54,085 bases of DNA from Pseudanabaena sp. FACHB-1998 (GTDB lineage: Bacteria > Cyanobacteriota > Cyanobacteriia > Pseudanabaenales > Pseudanabaenaceae), in assembly GCF_014696355.1 (NCBI RefSeq), contig NZ_JACJQA010000029.1:1-54085 (forward strand), read 5' to 3'. Made by a program: the position numbers and the translations under genes. A model generated the notes under the pieces. That model saw nothing but the letters and a program-made list of their open reading frames with translations. It did not search any database and was not told where the DNA came from. Below, in pieces: positions 5,777 to 46,317 of the stretch. Position 1 is the first letter of the stretch; every line of letters starts with the position of its first letter.

Positions 5777-5890
5777 GATTATTGGAGAGCATTTTATTGA
5801 GATAGGAAATAATTATACCCTGCAATAAATTGAGACACTCCAACGCTTATTTTGGATGGTTTCGCTTATCTATAGCGGTTGTCATTTTTG

Positions 5891-5951
5891 TTAGAGCCCA
5901 AAACCAGAAGACGAGTTGCGCCGCAACTCGTCTTCTGGTTTTGGGCTCTAA
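5891..5951. repeat. Perfect palindrome, 29-bp stem, GCC loop
   Basis: Arms 5891-5919 and 5923-5951, tip GCGCCGC. The inner arm contains GAGTTGCG, shared with the palindromes at 32183, 45047 and 46188. It lies between two divergent genes, so it does not follow a transcript end. Confidence 0.97.
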
Positions 5952-5952
5952 T

Positions 5953-6002
5953 CTCCCTAAGGATTTGTGCGCCGCTTCGCACCGCACAAATCCTTGGAGG
6001 GA
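5953..6002. repeat. Imperfect palindrome with GCTTCGC centre
   Basis: A 13-bp perfect core pairs 5959-5971 with 5983-5995. Outer bases pair less perfectly. GCTTCGC lies in the loop region. It abuts the preceding 29-bp palindrome. Confidence 0.8.
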
Positions 6003-22700: not shown

Positions 22701-22731
22701 AAGATGAGCGTCGCTAAGCGACGCTCATCTT
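22701..22731. repeat. Perfect palindrome, 14-bp stem, TAA loop, inside the rpo operon
   Basis: Arms 22701-22714 and 22718-22731, tip GCTAAGC, five bases after the rpoB stop. No T-run follows, so read-through to rpoC1 is expected. Confidence 0.95.
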
Positions 22732-31652: not shown

Positions 31653-32009
31653 ATGAAAAAGTATTTAGGATTTGTTGTTGCCACTTTTCTTTTAGTTGAA
31701 GGCTTTGGGGTTGGCTCCGCGATCGCGGGAGACAAGTATGGCGCAGTCGCAACTGGTCCAGATGGAGCCTATGGCTATGCTTACAATTACAATAGTCAAG
31801 ACGAAGCGGAGGCAAGAGCGCTTTATGAGTGCGGTAGTACCTGCTCTGTAAAAGTTTGGTTTGCCAATGCTTGCGGTGCTGTGGCTAAAGGCGGCGGTTA
31901 TTTGGGATGGGCTTGGAATGCTGATGAAACAGCCGCAAAAGCGAATGCTCTAGCTCAATGTGGTAATTCTAGTTGTGAAATTGCAGTTTGGGCATGTACC
32001 GATCGCTAA
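31653..32009 (+). CDS. Secreted DUF4189-type cysteine-rich protein
   Basis: This 118-residue protein starts with a clear Sec signal peptide (MKKYLGFVVATFLLVEGFGVGSAIAG, given here only as its N-terminal MKKYLGFVVATFLLVEG) ending near residue 25. The mature part is two related halves, each with AxAxAxxxC..xC (EAEARALYECGSTCSVKVWF and AAKANALAQCGNSSCEIAVW). Six cysteines suggest disulphides. This matches the DUF4189 domain; function unknown. A strong AGGAG lies just upstream. Confidence 0.82.
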   Translation: MKKYLGFVVATFLLVEGFGVGSAIAGDKYGAVATGPDGAYGYAYNYNSQDEAEARALYECGSTCSVKVWFANACGAVAKGGGYLGWAWNADETAAKANALAQCGNSSCEIAVWACTDR

Positions 32010-32057
32010 TCCGCCTAATAATCACTAAAACATTACCTGTTTAGTCTTTGGTTGGTA

Positions 32058-32108
32058 CAGAAAAATTTTGAAAAAGCTGGTTTAGCCAGCTTTTTCAAAA
32101 TTTTTCTG
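32058..32108. repeat. Perfect palindrome, 23-bp stem
   Basis: Arms 32058-32080 and 32086-32108 with a five-base loop, AT-rich with an AAAAAGCTGG core. It lies downstream of the DUF4189 gene. Confidence 0.95.
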
Positions 32109-32155
32109 GGTTTGAAAGAAATCGCAAAACTTTACATCTTCTCGAAAAATGACAA

Positions 32156-32271
32156 TTATAGCTGTTGCCATTCTTGTGAGGACACAAACCCAGAAGGGAG
32201 TTGCGGCGCGAAGCGCCGCAACTCCCTTCTGGGTTTGTGATTTGTCTTAATACAAGTGACCCCAGCTATAA
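32156..32271. mobile_element. MITE-like element with terminal inverted repeats
   Basis: The ends TTATAGCTG (32156-32164) and CAGCTATAA (32263-32271) are perfect inverted repeats. The following 25-30 bases on each side also pair imperfectly, and the centre is a perfect 27-bp-stem palindrome (32183-32239). The left end resembles CTATAGCGGTTGTCATTTTT at 5870 and the sequence at 41091. It encodes nothing. A non-autonomous element is the likely reading. Confidence 0.6.
32183..32239. repeat. Perfect palindrome, 27-bp stem, GAA loop
   Basis: Arms 32183-32209 and 32213-32239, tip GCGAAGC. It shares GAGTTGCGGCGC (or GGAGTTGCGGCGC) with the palindromes at 45047 and 46188. Confidence 0.97.
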
Positions 32272-32321
32272 AACTATAAAAAGGGAGTAGGCAGTTTGTG
32301 TCCGCTCCCTTTTTATGGTTT
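32271..32321. repeat. Inverted repeat, 17-bp stem
   Basis: Arms 32271-32287 and 32305-32321 pair with one G-T and a 17-base loop. Confidence 0.8.
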
Positions 32322-32391
32322 TATACGATTGCATCAGGCATATAAAAACTTAGTCTGAGATGCTTTTGGGATATCTGTAAGGCTTTTAAGC

Positions 32392-32397
32392 TATAAT
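32392..32397 (+). promoter_or_regulatory. Probable gyrB -10 box
   Basis: A perfect TATAAT lies 136 bp upstream of the gyrB ATG. No good -35 at 16-18 bp spacing is visible. Confidence 0.4.
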
Positions 32398-32457
32398 GGC
32401 AAAGTGTTTTTAGATATTTAATCAAAACACATCCTAAAGCATCATCAAGAGCGCTAT

Positions 32458-32490
32458 CAACAAATCAAAATGACTTTCTTTGATTTGTTG
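32458..32490 (+). repeat. 12-bp stem in gyrB leader
   Basis: Arms 32458-32469 and 32479-32490, nine-base loop, 43 bp before the gyrB ATG. It lies downstream of the proposed -10, so it would be in the mRNA leader. Confidence 0.75.
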
Positions 32491-32502
32491 CCGCAATCTT
32501 AA

Positions 32503-34473
<1,971 letters not shown>

Positions 34474-41050: not shown

Positions 41051-41185
41051 AATCAATCTTTGAATGTGTTAAATGAATGAACTAAACCCACTATAGCGGT
41101 TTTCATTTGGACTTTACAGCGCTTTGCGCTTAAACAAACCCCAGAGTAAGGTTGCGCCGCACCTTTACTCTGGGGTTTTAAGGCG
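41051..41185. other. Spacer with truncated MITE-like element
   Basis: From 41091 the sequence has the element end CTATAGCGGTTTTCATTTGG. A reverse-oriented tail motif (TTTACAGCGCTTTGCGCTTA, 41113-41132) follows, then a palindrome (41136-41178). A matching right end is missing before the next gene's stop at 41186. Confidence 0.55.
41136..41178. repeat. Palindrome, about 16-bp stem plus bulge
   Basis: Arms 41136-41151 and 41163-41178 pair with one G-T; a one-base bulge then allows TGC-GCA to pair further in. The core GTTGCGCCGCA is close to that at 5891-5951. Confidence 0.85.
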
Positions 41186-42403
41186 TTAGAGACTGAATAA
41201 CTCCTTCGCGATCGCATCAGCTAATCCTTCAGAACCACCCTTAGCACCAACTCGCTCTAATCCATTAAGTCGGCATTGGTCTAGATACGGGCGATCGCCT
41301 AAAGTTCTCTTGACGCATTTTGCGGCCTCTCTCAAGGTTTCGGGCGTAGCCGCTTCTTTGCCTATGGTTTGGACTGATAAGCCCAGTAACCGCTCTTGTG
41401 CTTCCGCAAAACGATAGGAAAATTGGGGACCATTTCCCATAATCTGCACTACAGGTTTACCCAAGCCAACCGCTTGTTCCACAGCAGTTCCCGCCATGCC
41501 GATCGCCAAATTACATTGATGTAAAATATCAGAAAAAGCATCACTAAAACAGAGAATACTGATCCCTAAATTCTCTTGATAGAGCTTGCCATCGGCATAT
41601 TGCCAACCCGCTTGGGGCGCGAGTTCAGATAATTGGGGCATGAGGCTAGGCACAAGCGCCGCCCGAAATTGGATCGGTTCAGGGGCAAATTCTTGGGCGA
41701 TCGCCTCACACAAACGCATCTGCAAGACGAGATTTTCGGCAGCTTCGGGTAACCGACTGCCAGCTAAGAGCGCAATCATGGCGACTTCAGGACTCAAGCA
41801 CAAATTTTTCTCCGTTGGTTCTAATACATCCATAATCGGATAACCAACAAAACTTGTATTTCTATAACCCCTTTGCCTAATGAGTTCCGCACTATAGGCA
41901 TCACGGGTTAAAATTTGCTTACAGCGAGGCGATCGCATCATCAGAGCTTGTTCCCACCGTGGCACATAGCGATTTTCGTAAAATCCCGAAGATGACACCA
42001 AAAACATGGCATAGGGTAAGCCCGTCACATAGGCAAAAATAGCTGGTAATACATCTCCTGTCGCAAAGACAAAATCACAAGTTTTGCCACAGGCCCTCGC
42101 CGCCTTGATTTGTTGCCAAGTTAAAGCAATCAATCCCGATTGAAAATCTTCAATTTGCTTCCATAAACTCATATAGGCAAAACCGCCTGATGGCAGAGAC
42201 TTAGTAGGGGTGGCGATTTCTACACCTGCCCGACGATAGGCACTACCATCACCCACTAGGGGCAAGGCGATCGCTTCTACCTGAGGATATTTACGCAGTA
42301 AAGCTTTAAGAACTTCAGAACCATTGAGATCTTCTCCATGTCCATTACTAATAAAGAGAACTCGCTTCTTTTGATTTGATTTGGAAATGGAGATCCTGTG
42401 CAT
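41186..42403 (-). CDS. Lipid-A-disaccharide synthase-related protein
   Basis: This 405-residue protein begins MHRISISKSNQKKRVLFISNG with HGEDLNGSEVL next, typical of a cyanobacterial family related to LpxB glycosyltransferases (I recall TIGR03492). The C-terminal part has the donor-binding GMAGTAVEQAVGLGKPVVQ with a later FRFAEAQERLLG-like region (here YRFAEAQERLLG). True LpxB makes lipid A disaccharide; this branch has an unknown acceptor. The frame is open to 42532, but those 43 residues come from palindrome sequence, so I used the ATG at 42403. Confidence 0.82.
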   Translation of the reverse strand: MHRISISKSNQKKRVLFISNGHGEDLNGSEVLKALLRKYPQVEAIALPLVGDGSAYRRAGVEIATPTKSLPSGGFAYMSLWKQIEDFQSGLIALTWQQIKAARACGKTCDFVFATGDVLPAIFAYVTGLPYAMFLVSSSGFYENRYVPRWEQALMMRSPRCKQILTRDAYSAELIRQRGYRNTSFVGYPIMDVLEPTEKNLCLSPEVAMIALLAGSRLPEAAENLVLQMRLCEAIAQEFAPEPIQFRAALVPSLMPQLSELAPQAGWQYADGKLYQENLGISILCFSDAFSDILHQCNLAIGMAGTAVEQAVGLGKPVVQIMGNGPQFSYRFAEAQERLLGLSVQTIGKEAATPETLREAAKCVKRTLGDRPYLDQCRLNGLERVGAKGGSEGLADAIAKELFSL

Positions 42404-44979: not shown

Positions 44980-45046
44980 TAAAATCTTTAGGTGGGTTGT
45001 TTTGGGCTTTGATGTACAGCAAAGCCATAGTTAGCCAGTACAAACC

Positions 45047-45101
45047 AAAACCCAAAAAGCGAGTTGCGGCGCTTCGCGCCGCAACTCGCTTTTTGGGTTT
45101 T
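45047..45101. repeat. Perfect palindrome, 26-bp stem, TTC loop; copy 1 of identical pair
   Basis: Arms 45047-45072 and 45076-45101, tip GCTTCGC. All 55 bases recur unchanged at 46192-46246. Confidence 0.98.
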
Positions 45102-45180
45102 ATGTCCTAAGCAAAACTTACATTGCTATAGGGGGAAAGCCAAGCGCTCATGGGTGACAGCGATATTCACAACGTCACTG

Positions 45181-46128: not shown

Positions 46129-46167
46129 ACAAAAAAGCTTGCATTAGCAAGCTTTTTTGTTTATCTG
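46122..46167. repeat. Perfect palindrome, 21-bp stem, overlapping a stop codon
   Basis: Arms 46122-46142 and 46147-46167 with loop ATTA, GC-closed. The left arm contains the last coding triplets and TAA of the preceding gene. Confidence 0.96.
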
Positions 46168-46187
46168 TAGTCAATTTCATTAGGACG

Positions 46188-46250
46188 ACCCAAAACCCAA
46201 AAAGCGAGTTGCGGCGCTTCGCGCCGCAACTCGCTTTTTGGGTTTTGGGT
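46188..46250. repeat. Perfect palindrome, 30-bp stem, TTC loop; copy 2 of identical pair
   Basis: Arms 46188-46217 and 46221-46250, tip GCTTCGC. The inner 55 bases equal 45047-45101. It has four more paired bases on each side than copy 1. Confidence 0.98.
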
Positions 46251-46260
46251 TCTAACAAGA

Positions 46261-46317
46261 CTGCTTAATTTATCTAGACAAAATGACATAGTCATTTTGT
46301 CTAGATAAATTAAGCAG
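46261..46317. repeat. Perfect palindrome, 27-bp stem, ATA loop, overlapping a stop codon
   Basis: Arms 46261-46287 and 46291-46317. The tip is ACATAGT, the second exception to the GC rule. The right arm includes the stop and last codons of the peptidyl-prolyl isomerase gene. Confidence 0.97.

Follow-up and report, generated by a model that had tools for sequence, protein, structure and literature searches.

How does a short stretch of DNA come to carry a perfect palindrome, and what keeps the two arms of such a palindrome alike while their sequence changes? This question is raised by a block at positions 32156–32271 of the window, which is the whole 54,085-nucleotide stretch of the Pseudanabaena sp. 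FACHB-1998 genome that was analyzed here. The block, which reads TTATAGCTG ... CAGCTATAA directly in the window sequence, is located between a DUF4189 gene (31653–32009) and gyrB (32521–34473). It had been proposed to be a MITE-like element with inverted-repeat ends and a palindromic core. The explanation favored below, which we consider very probable, is that the block is a MITE moved in trans by a transposase of the IS630/Tc1-mariner type and that its palindrome is kept symmetrical by template switching from arm to arm.

Structure, copy number, and mobility of the element

The 116-bp block and its inverted-repeat ends are present as described, with one adjustment: the 9-bp repeat includes, as its outermost pair, a T/A that belongs to the flanking DNA, and the element proper, including both TAs, spans 32157–32270 (114 bp) and has no coding capacity. 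The imperfect pairing reported inside the ends corresponds, on the family consensus, to agreement between the left end and the inverted right end at 20 of 27 bases. The central stem of 27 bp is 100% complementary and closes on the loop GAA (Table 1). The folded DNA strand of the block has a z value of -11.7, and none of 200 shuffled sequences folded equally well. The core scores as terminator-like on both strands.

Table 1. Positions of the element, its parts, and related sites in the window
Feature	Positions	Strand	Basis
Left TA of the target-site duplication	32157..32158	.	Presumed at this copy; four other family insertions have empty sites with one TA
Left terminal inverted repeat (with the TA, TATAGCTGTTGCCATTCTTGTGAGGAC)	32159..32183	+	Alignment of 29 own-genome copies; bipartite motif also in IS630 elements
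Left arm of the perfect 27-bp stem	32183..32209	+	
3-base loop GAA; TTC (inverted) in about half of related copies	32210..32212	+	
Right arm of the perfect 27-bp stem	32213..32239	+	
Right terminal inverted repeat	32244..32268	-	Alignment of own-genome copies; counterpart in the parent-type IS
Right TA of the target-site duplication	32269..32270	.	Presumed, as for the left TA
Half copy with left end and core retained and right end gone	5871..5965	+	Family covariance model, E = 2.6e-9
Solitary end TATAGCGGTTTTCATTT of a different IS630-type family, beside another palindrome	41091..41110	+	Sequence; not a family member by the model
Member of a related subfamily, with TATAGCAATGTAAGTTTTGCTTAGGACATAAAACC as left end	45020..45130	-	Family covariance model, E = 2.2e-13
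Degraded further copy of the family	46160..46274	-	Family covariance model, E = 2.2e-16

The window block is one copy of a high-copy Pseudanabaena MITE. A relaxed 16-base form of the left end, TATAGCNGTTNNCATT, has 52 matches in the 4.78-Mb genome of the strain, against 2 for the reversed control pattern, and in 33 of the 52 a right end follows within 60–170 bp. Further copies with paired ends, for which a search had been suggested, are thus abundant. The unit is mostly 113–116 bp long, and the mean column identity is 90% over 29 aligned own-genome copies (four of the 33, L007, L023, L027, and L040, were left out on account of their odd length); the copies were picked by the left-end pattern, so the conservation of the left end is partly built in. 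The exact 20-base end occurs 27 times in the own genome and once or twice in each of 5 of the 22 congeners sampled. Left ends of a young subfamily, counted with a 31-base pattern and at most 1 mismatch, number 88, 45, and 24 in three close congeners, with 0 for the controls. Matches to a covariance model of the family are present in every one of the 26 genomes analyzed from the genus; with scoring limited to approximately 143 candidates per genome, these matches include bare hairpins and both strands and are not element counts.

Target sites were studied with eight congener insertions, whose flanks were joined and searched for in nine relatives. Clean empty sites were found for four of them (L329, L331, L333, and L334), and in each of them one TA takes the place of the two present at the filled site. 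A fifth insertion (L325) was spanned, but raggedly, and the remaining three had no readable empty site. Because the four clean sites hold a single TA, it follows that insertion of the MITE duplicates TA. This is the target-site duplication that had been sought; it is seen in the congener insertions and presumed for the window copy. In the DUF4189–gyrB intergene of four congeners (G014, G007, G002, and G013), no clean empty site for the window copy is visible, because divergence of the orthologous intergene has gone too far. Two congeners compared over 200 kb, with approximately 37 kb in aligned blocks, likewise showed no clean MITE empty site.

Two observations concern the occupancy of such sites. 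The hairpin found in the intergene that corresponds to window positions 32010–32520 differs among the four readable congeners (L134, L139, L140, and L148), and in L134 the hairpin bears only the right MITE end and directly follows a stop codon. At the site of the L333 insertion, two other congeners (L360 and L361) carry a different IS630-type MITE with TAGCAAAGCAAG ends and a similar core, which reads as repeated insertion or replacement at one site.

The origin of the mobility is indicated by the ends. The bipartite ends of the MITE, TATAGCTGT...CA...TTAGGAC, match those of an insertion sequence of approximately 0.95 kb from the IS630/Tc1-mariner group. The own genome contains a transposase fragment of this kind (C36; PF13358, E 1.5e-39) and one diverged full-length copy, whose gene is split in two reading frames (C47; PF01710, E 1.2e-14, and PF13358, E 1.5e-24). 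Both the DDE_3 catalytic domain and the IS630 HTH domain are therefore detected in the parent-type element. The 3' end of the own-genome insertion sequence, TATAGCTGTCGCCAAGTGTATTAGGAC, has 21 of 27 bases in common with the left end of the MITE and 22 of 27 with the right end. In the parent-type element, the stretch that corresponds to the right terminal inverted repeat contains the transposase stop codon (GTCCTAATA). Six contigs of the assembly end just inside the 5' part of the insertion sequence and four inside its 3' part, and longer 3' parts are present on another three, as is expected of a repeated element that breaks assembly; several near-identical copies are likely. The location of the copies at contig ends prevents a complete and intact transposase of this insertion sequence from being read.

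Relatives of this transposase are encoded at 79 loci in a scan of named genomes, all of them cyanobacterial. Elements that can be read at both ends are mostly 960–967 bp long and have TATAGC...TTAGGAC-like ends. Cylindrospermum NIES-4074 has nine loci with elements that carry the same bipartite ends, and at eight of these loci the ends are identical. In the phylum, 20 of 292 genomes contain the bipartite end motif, including the own genome and two congeners, and none contain the reversed control. The unit is thus an IS630-type MITE, and the claim that it is a non-autonomous transposon is borne out by its many paired-end copies, by the TA duplication, and by ends that match a transposase-encoding element in the same genome. 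The transposase of the own-genome insertion sequence would mobilize it in trans, as judged from the ends. Since only 21–22 of 27 end bases match, this insertion sequence may be a cousin of the MITE and not its actual source.

The opposite view, that the block is not mobile at all and represents a REP-like repeat or a conserved promoter or terminator motif, agrees with the great abundance of hairpins in those three genomes of the genus in which they were counted. It is nevertheless close to untenable. The conserved ends with their TA duplication, which are common to a transposase element, argue against it, and no Rfam family reaches the gathering threshold anywhere in the window. The empty sites refute it.

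Concerted change of the two palindrome arms

Copies whose ends are nearly identical carry different stems, and the stems also vary in sequence among the own-genome copies. The best stem is perfect over 18–27 bp in 15 of the 33 full copies; in 13 it reaches at most 14 bp, the outer arms being of two types, which speaks against an arm-to-arm copying process. Covariation analysis of the 29 aligned copies identified nine pairs that had changed on both sides, and the observed values were reached in 0 of 500 shuffles. The same behavior was seen in a larger set of 121 copies. Mismatches with the own arm totaled 155, compared with a mean of 755 (minimum 623) in 10,000 permutations in which the copies were treated as unrelated. 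Put differently, of 24 positions, 1.3 are mismatched between the two arms of one copy, compared with 6.3 when an arm is set against the partners of other copies.

The set of 121 was drawn partly from a structure-aware model that favors paired stems, and for this reason, a second set was collected by the exact left end alone. It comprises 88 copies; three close congeners (G011, G022, and G004) supplied nearly all of them, a few came from others, and the own genome contributed none. The 24-bp arms are fully paired in 69 of these copies and not in the other 19. Rates were counted on 67 canonical copies, after 21 had been dropped for having more than 8 differences in the 34 bases of the right end or more than 5 in the 24 bases of the left arm; the dropped copies include L431, L446, and L470, which have strongly mismatched arms. 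The canonical copies show 31 double-sided changes, in 26 copies, and 25 unpaired cells, in 10 copies, with 13 of the unpaired cells in L453 and L454. If the arms changed independently at the rate of the right end, approximately 0.9 double-sided and approximately 130 one-sided changes would be expected. Counted as distinct variants, 16 changes are double-sided and 19 one-sided, and therefore the inheritance of some variants inflates the counts of occurrences; the excess of double-sided changes over independence remains. As to the loops, TTC occurs in 31 copies, GAA in 30, TTT in 3, and AAA in 3, and among copies with identical arms and an identical right end, the loop orientation is split 6 to 5. 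Concerted evolution of the two arms lies beyond what the original prediction could see.

The pairing of the stems could also reflect selection on the hairpin in transcribed form, as a terminator or mRNA stabilizer, together with ordinary compensatory mutations that follow one another. This would suit the terminator-like core and the position of the copies, since 30 of the 33 full own-genome copies are intergenic by a crude ORF call (the other 3 lie inside ORFs of 73–90 aa). Several other hairpins of the window also start 10 bases or fewer from a stop codon, for example at 22701, 24845, 28913, 30532, and 34477. We regard this explanation as unlikely. Successive mutation should leave more one-sided intermediates, whereas in copies whose ends are nearly identical, double-sided changes are more numerous than unpaired cells and lie more than 30-fold above the number expected for independent arms. 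A 1:1 inversion of the loop is not predicted by selection on pairing. In addition, 6 of the 30 intergenic copies are flanked by divergent genes, a position in which termination would serve no obvious purpose, and this weakens the case that the stem exists mainly as a terminator. Template switching between the arms has its own points of difficulty in these counts, namely that one-sided changes do exist and that double-sided changes do not exceed them when distinct variants are counted.

The set also contains hybrid copies. L453 and L454 combine the left arm of one subfamily with a right arm that resembles that of another, and recombination within the core is the probable cause.

Changes at fixed sites and the proposed mechanism

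Insertions that are orthologous between species make it possible to follow a palindrome in place. Five such insertions together contain three double-sided changes, one one-sided change, and two loop inversions. At the first, two species have different double-sided changes relative to a third. The second (L337/L468) combines a double-sided change of a single pair with an inverted loop, the element being otherwise unchanged. The third has an inverted loop and one change near the end. The fourth has a one-sided change in the stem, and the fifth has no change.

Hairpins that do not belong to the MITE can be followed in the same way. Eight orthologous sites were compared in two congeners, and at two of them a double-sided change is accompanied by an inverted loop (positions 154915 and 159323 of the joined L192–L201 against L202–L211, with loops TCT/AGA and A/T). 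One further site has an altered loop that can be read as an inversion plus a one-sided change. The remaining sites comprise one with mixed double- and one-sided changes, one with a one-sided change, one that is identical, and two with unrelated sequence in the two species. Three of the eight non-MITE sites thus show one-sided or mixed changes, which counts against template switching. Concerted two-arm changes and loop inversions are observed facts of this system, at fixed orthologous insertions as well as among copies. The homogenization of inverted-repeat arms together with inversion of the spacer is the signature of polymerase template switching in the part of the source drawn on here (PMC8604942), and both changes at a fixed site were found in the orthologous insertions and in the two non-MITE hairpins. 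The power of template switching to create and maintain perfect hairpins has been argued elsewhere, again as far as the excerpted text goes (PMC8794818).

These fixed sites also bear on two other explanations. Ectopic recombination between family members whose stems already match would yield paired changes, and it would account for the hybrid copies L453 and L454 and for the many own-genome copies that join two arm types. It is very unlikely as the source of the symmetry. Exchange within the core unites arms of different copies and breaks the symmetry; the change at L337/L468 affects a single pair and leaves the rest of the element as it was, apart from the loop; and two non-MITE hairpins behave alike, which would count against recombination if they have no donor copies. 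Alternatively, the hairpin might be rewritten during transposition, for example via a hairpin intermediate, and not during replication, which would fit the random loop orientation among recently spread copies. This explanation is likewise very unlikely. Transposition is ruled out as the sole occasion of rewriting because double-sided changes and loop inversions occur at fixed orthologous insertions and in non-MITE hairpins.

Template switching is the most likely cause of the concerted arms, and the following sequence of events is proposed. The transposase would recognize the bipartite ends of approximately 27 bp and excise the element, which would then insert at a TA and duplicate it; a near-perfect palindrome takes the place of a gene between the ends. 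When one arm mutates and the replication fork stalls at the hairpin, one arm could be copied from the other by an intramolecular template switch. In this way, the mutation would be removed or else transferred so that both arms carry it, and the small loop would be inverted whenever the switch occurs between strands. The polymerase step itself is what we infer from these products. Selection on pairing may add to template switching, but it leaves the scarcity of one-sided intermediates and the random loops unexplained. Any function for the host is secondary in this scheme; where an element lands downstream of genes, its hairpin would be expected, from its sequence, to be a two-way transcription terminator.

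Comparison with known systems and the hairpins of the genus

The nearest parallel in build is RUP of Streptococcus pneumoniae, described in part of PMC3049150 as a 107-bp repeat with ends like those of IS630-Spn1, 110 copies in one genome, and a proposed mobilization in trans. The two elements are alike in size, high copy number, ends similar to an IS630 element, and proposed movement in trans; unlike the Pseudanabaena MITE, RUP has another host and another end sequence. A concerted palindromic core is unmentioned for RUP in the portion of PMC3049150 that was drawn on. The same portion presents Nezha, a cyanobacterial MITE whose proposed movers are ISNpu3-like elements. Nezha, taken here from its description, is like the present element cyanobacterial and assigned to an insertion sequence by its ends. 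The MITEs of Anabaena sp. 90 number 147 complete or partial copies of 77–541 bp, with predicted folds and mostly intergenic positions; according to the excerpted text, they were classed as type II because the genome yielded no insertion sequence with similar inverted repeats (PMC3542288), whereas the Pseudanabaena genome has one. ISY100 belongs to the Tc1/mariner/IS630 family and prefers TA targets in the excerpts of its two sources (PMC2170065, PMC6400869). This element and other cyanobacterial IS630/Tc1-mariner elements are autonomous, whereas the Pseudanabaena block has no gene.

Palindromes are also the mark of the REP/RAYT system, in which a GTAG-tagged palindrome of 20–40 bp is tied to a tyrosine (HUH) transposase, as summarized in part of PMC3733652. 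The present element does not belong there: its ends are flanked by TA and match those of an element with a DDE transposase. For template switching, a GAA to TTC spacer inversion is known in a quasipalindrome of a yeast gene from the excerpted source (PMC8604942). The published cases in the parts of these papers used here concern yeast genes and RNA genes (PMC8604942, PMC8794818), whereas the Pseudanabaena substrate is a multi-copy transposable element. In the open-licence literature, a Pseudanabaena MITE with a concerted palindrome was not found described, which is thin evidence, and among open-licence papers on MITEs and template switching at palindromes, judged by title, nothing concerned bacteria. 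The mobile element is a new IS630-derived MITE that is RUP-like in build and is distinct through its concerted, fast-changing palindrome.

As a rule, template switching at palindromes has to be deduced from single events, which are rare. The MITE offers many sites in related genomes, each of which acts as a trial next to an end sequence that has barely changed, so that the rates of double-sided changes, one-sided changes, and loop inversions become countable in a bacterium. Such a process would give a mutational instead of a selective reason for bacterial intergenic hairpins that are perfect and yet unrelated between species. It also bears on the reading of covariation as proof of RNA function.

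The hairpins of the genus are numerous. The window contains 37 long perfect or near-perfect hairpins (1768 to 52580), or one per 1.5 kb and 68 per 100 kb, with 0 in the shuffled window; the loop has 3 bases in 20 of the 37, and several lie close to stop codons. Two congeners, analyzed over 200 kb each, have 52 long hairpins per 100 kb. At 103 loci of other cyanobacteria there are 2 per 100 kb, a density 34 times below that of the window, although these loci were taken around copies of the insertion sequence and end motifs and are a biased, rough yardstick only. Orthologous intergenes of congeners often carry unrelated hairpins. Simple loss of SbcD, a subunit of the SbcCD hairpin nuclease, was rejected as the reason for the many hairpins, since SbcD is present in the own genome and in all 5 sampled congeners (108 of 116 genomes overall). 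A tentative reading, which we hold to be somewhat short of an even chance, is that the palindromes of Pseudanabaena are rewritten from arm to arm so often that their sequence is nearly free and their symmetry is enforced, with the MITEs both supplying hairpins and reporting the process. If this were true, replication or repair in the lineage would have to be unusual in some respect other than simple loss of SbcD.

Other members of the family were located by running the covariance model over the window, and weaker matches fall on other hairpins. Two further sites had been put forward as cut copies of the same transposon on the basis of the left-end string CTATAGCGGTTGTCATTTTT. The string is exact at 5870–5889; at 41091–41110 the sequence is CTATAGCGGTTTTCATTTGG, which differs in three letters. 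A palindrome does stand beside each site (30 bp and perfect at 5870; 21 bp and 90% paired at 41091), and a matching right end was found at neither. The site at 5870 is indeed a truncated family copy. Its palindrome stretches outward and takes in subterminal bases of the left end (TTAGAGCCC...GGGCTCTAA). In our own reading of the bases, it looks as though the left side had been copied over the right. The two degraded relatives at 45020–45130 and 46160–46274 had gone unmentioned in the original prediction. The site at 41091 belongs to another IS630-type family, the nearest model match being at 41115–41211 with E = 0.31. The first 14 bases of its end are common with TATAGCGGTTTTCAAATGAG, which in a congener bounds another IS630-type element of 1,022 bp (L082, L113, L119, L124, and L128); this element is a likely relative of the end at 41091.
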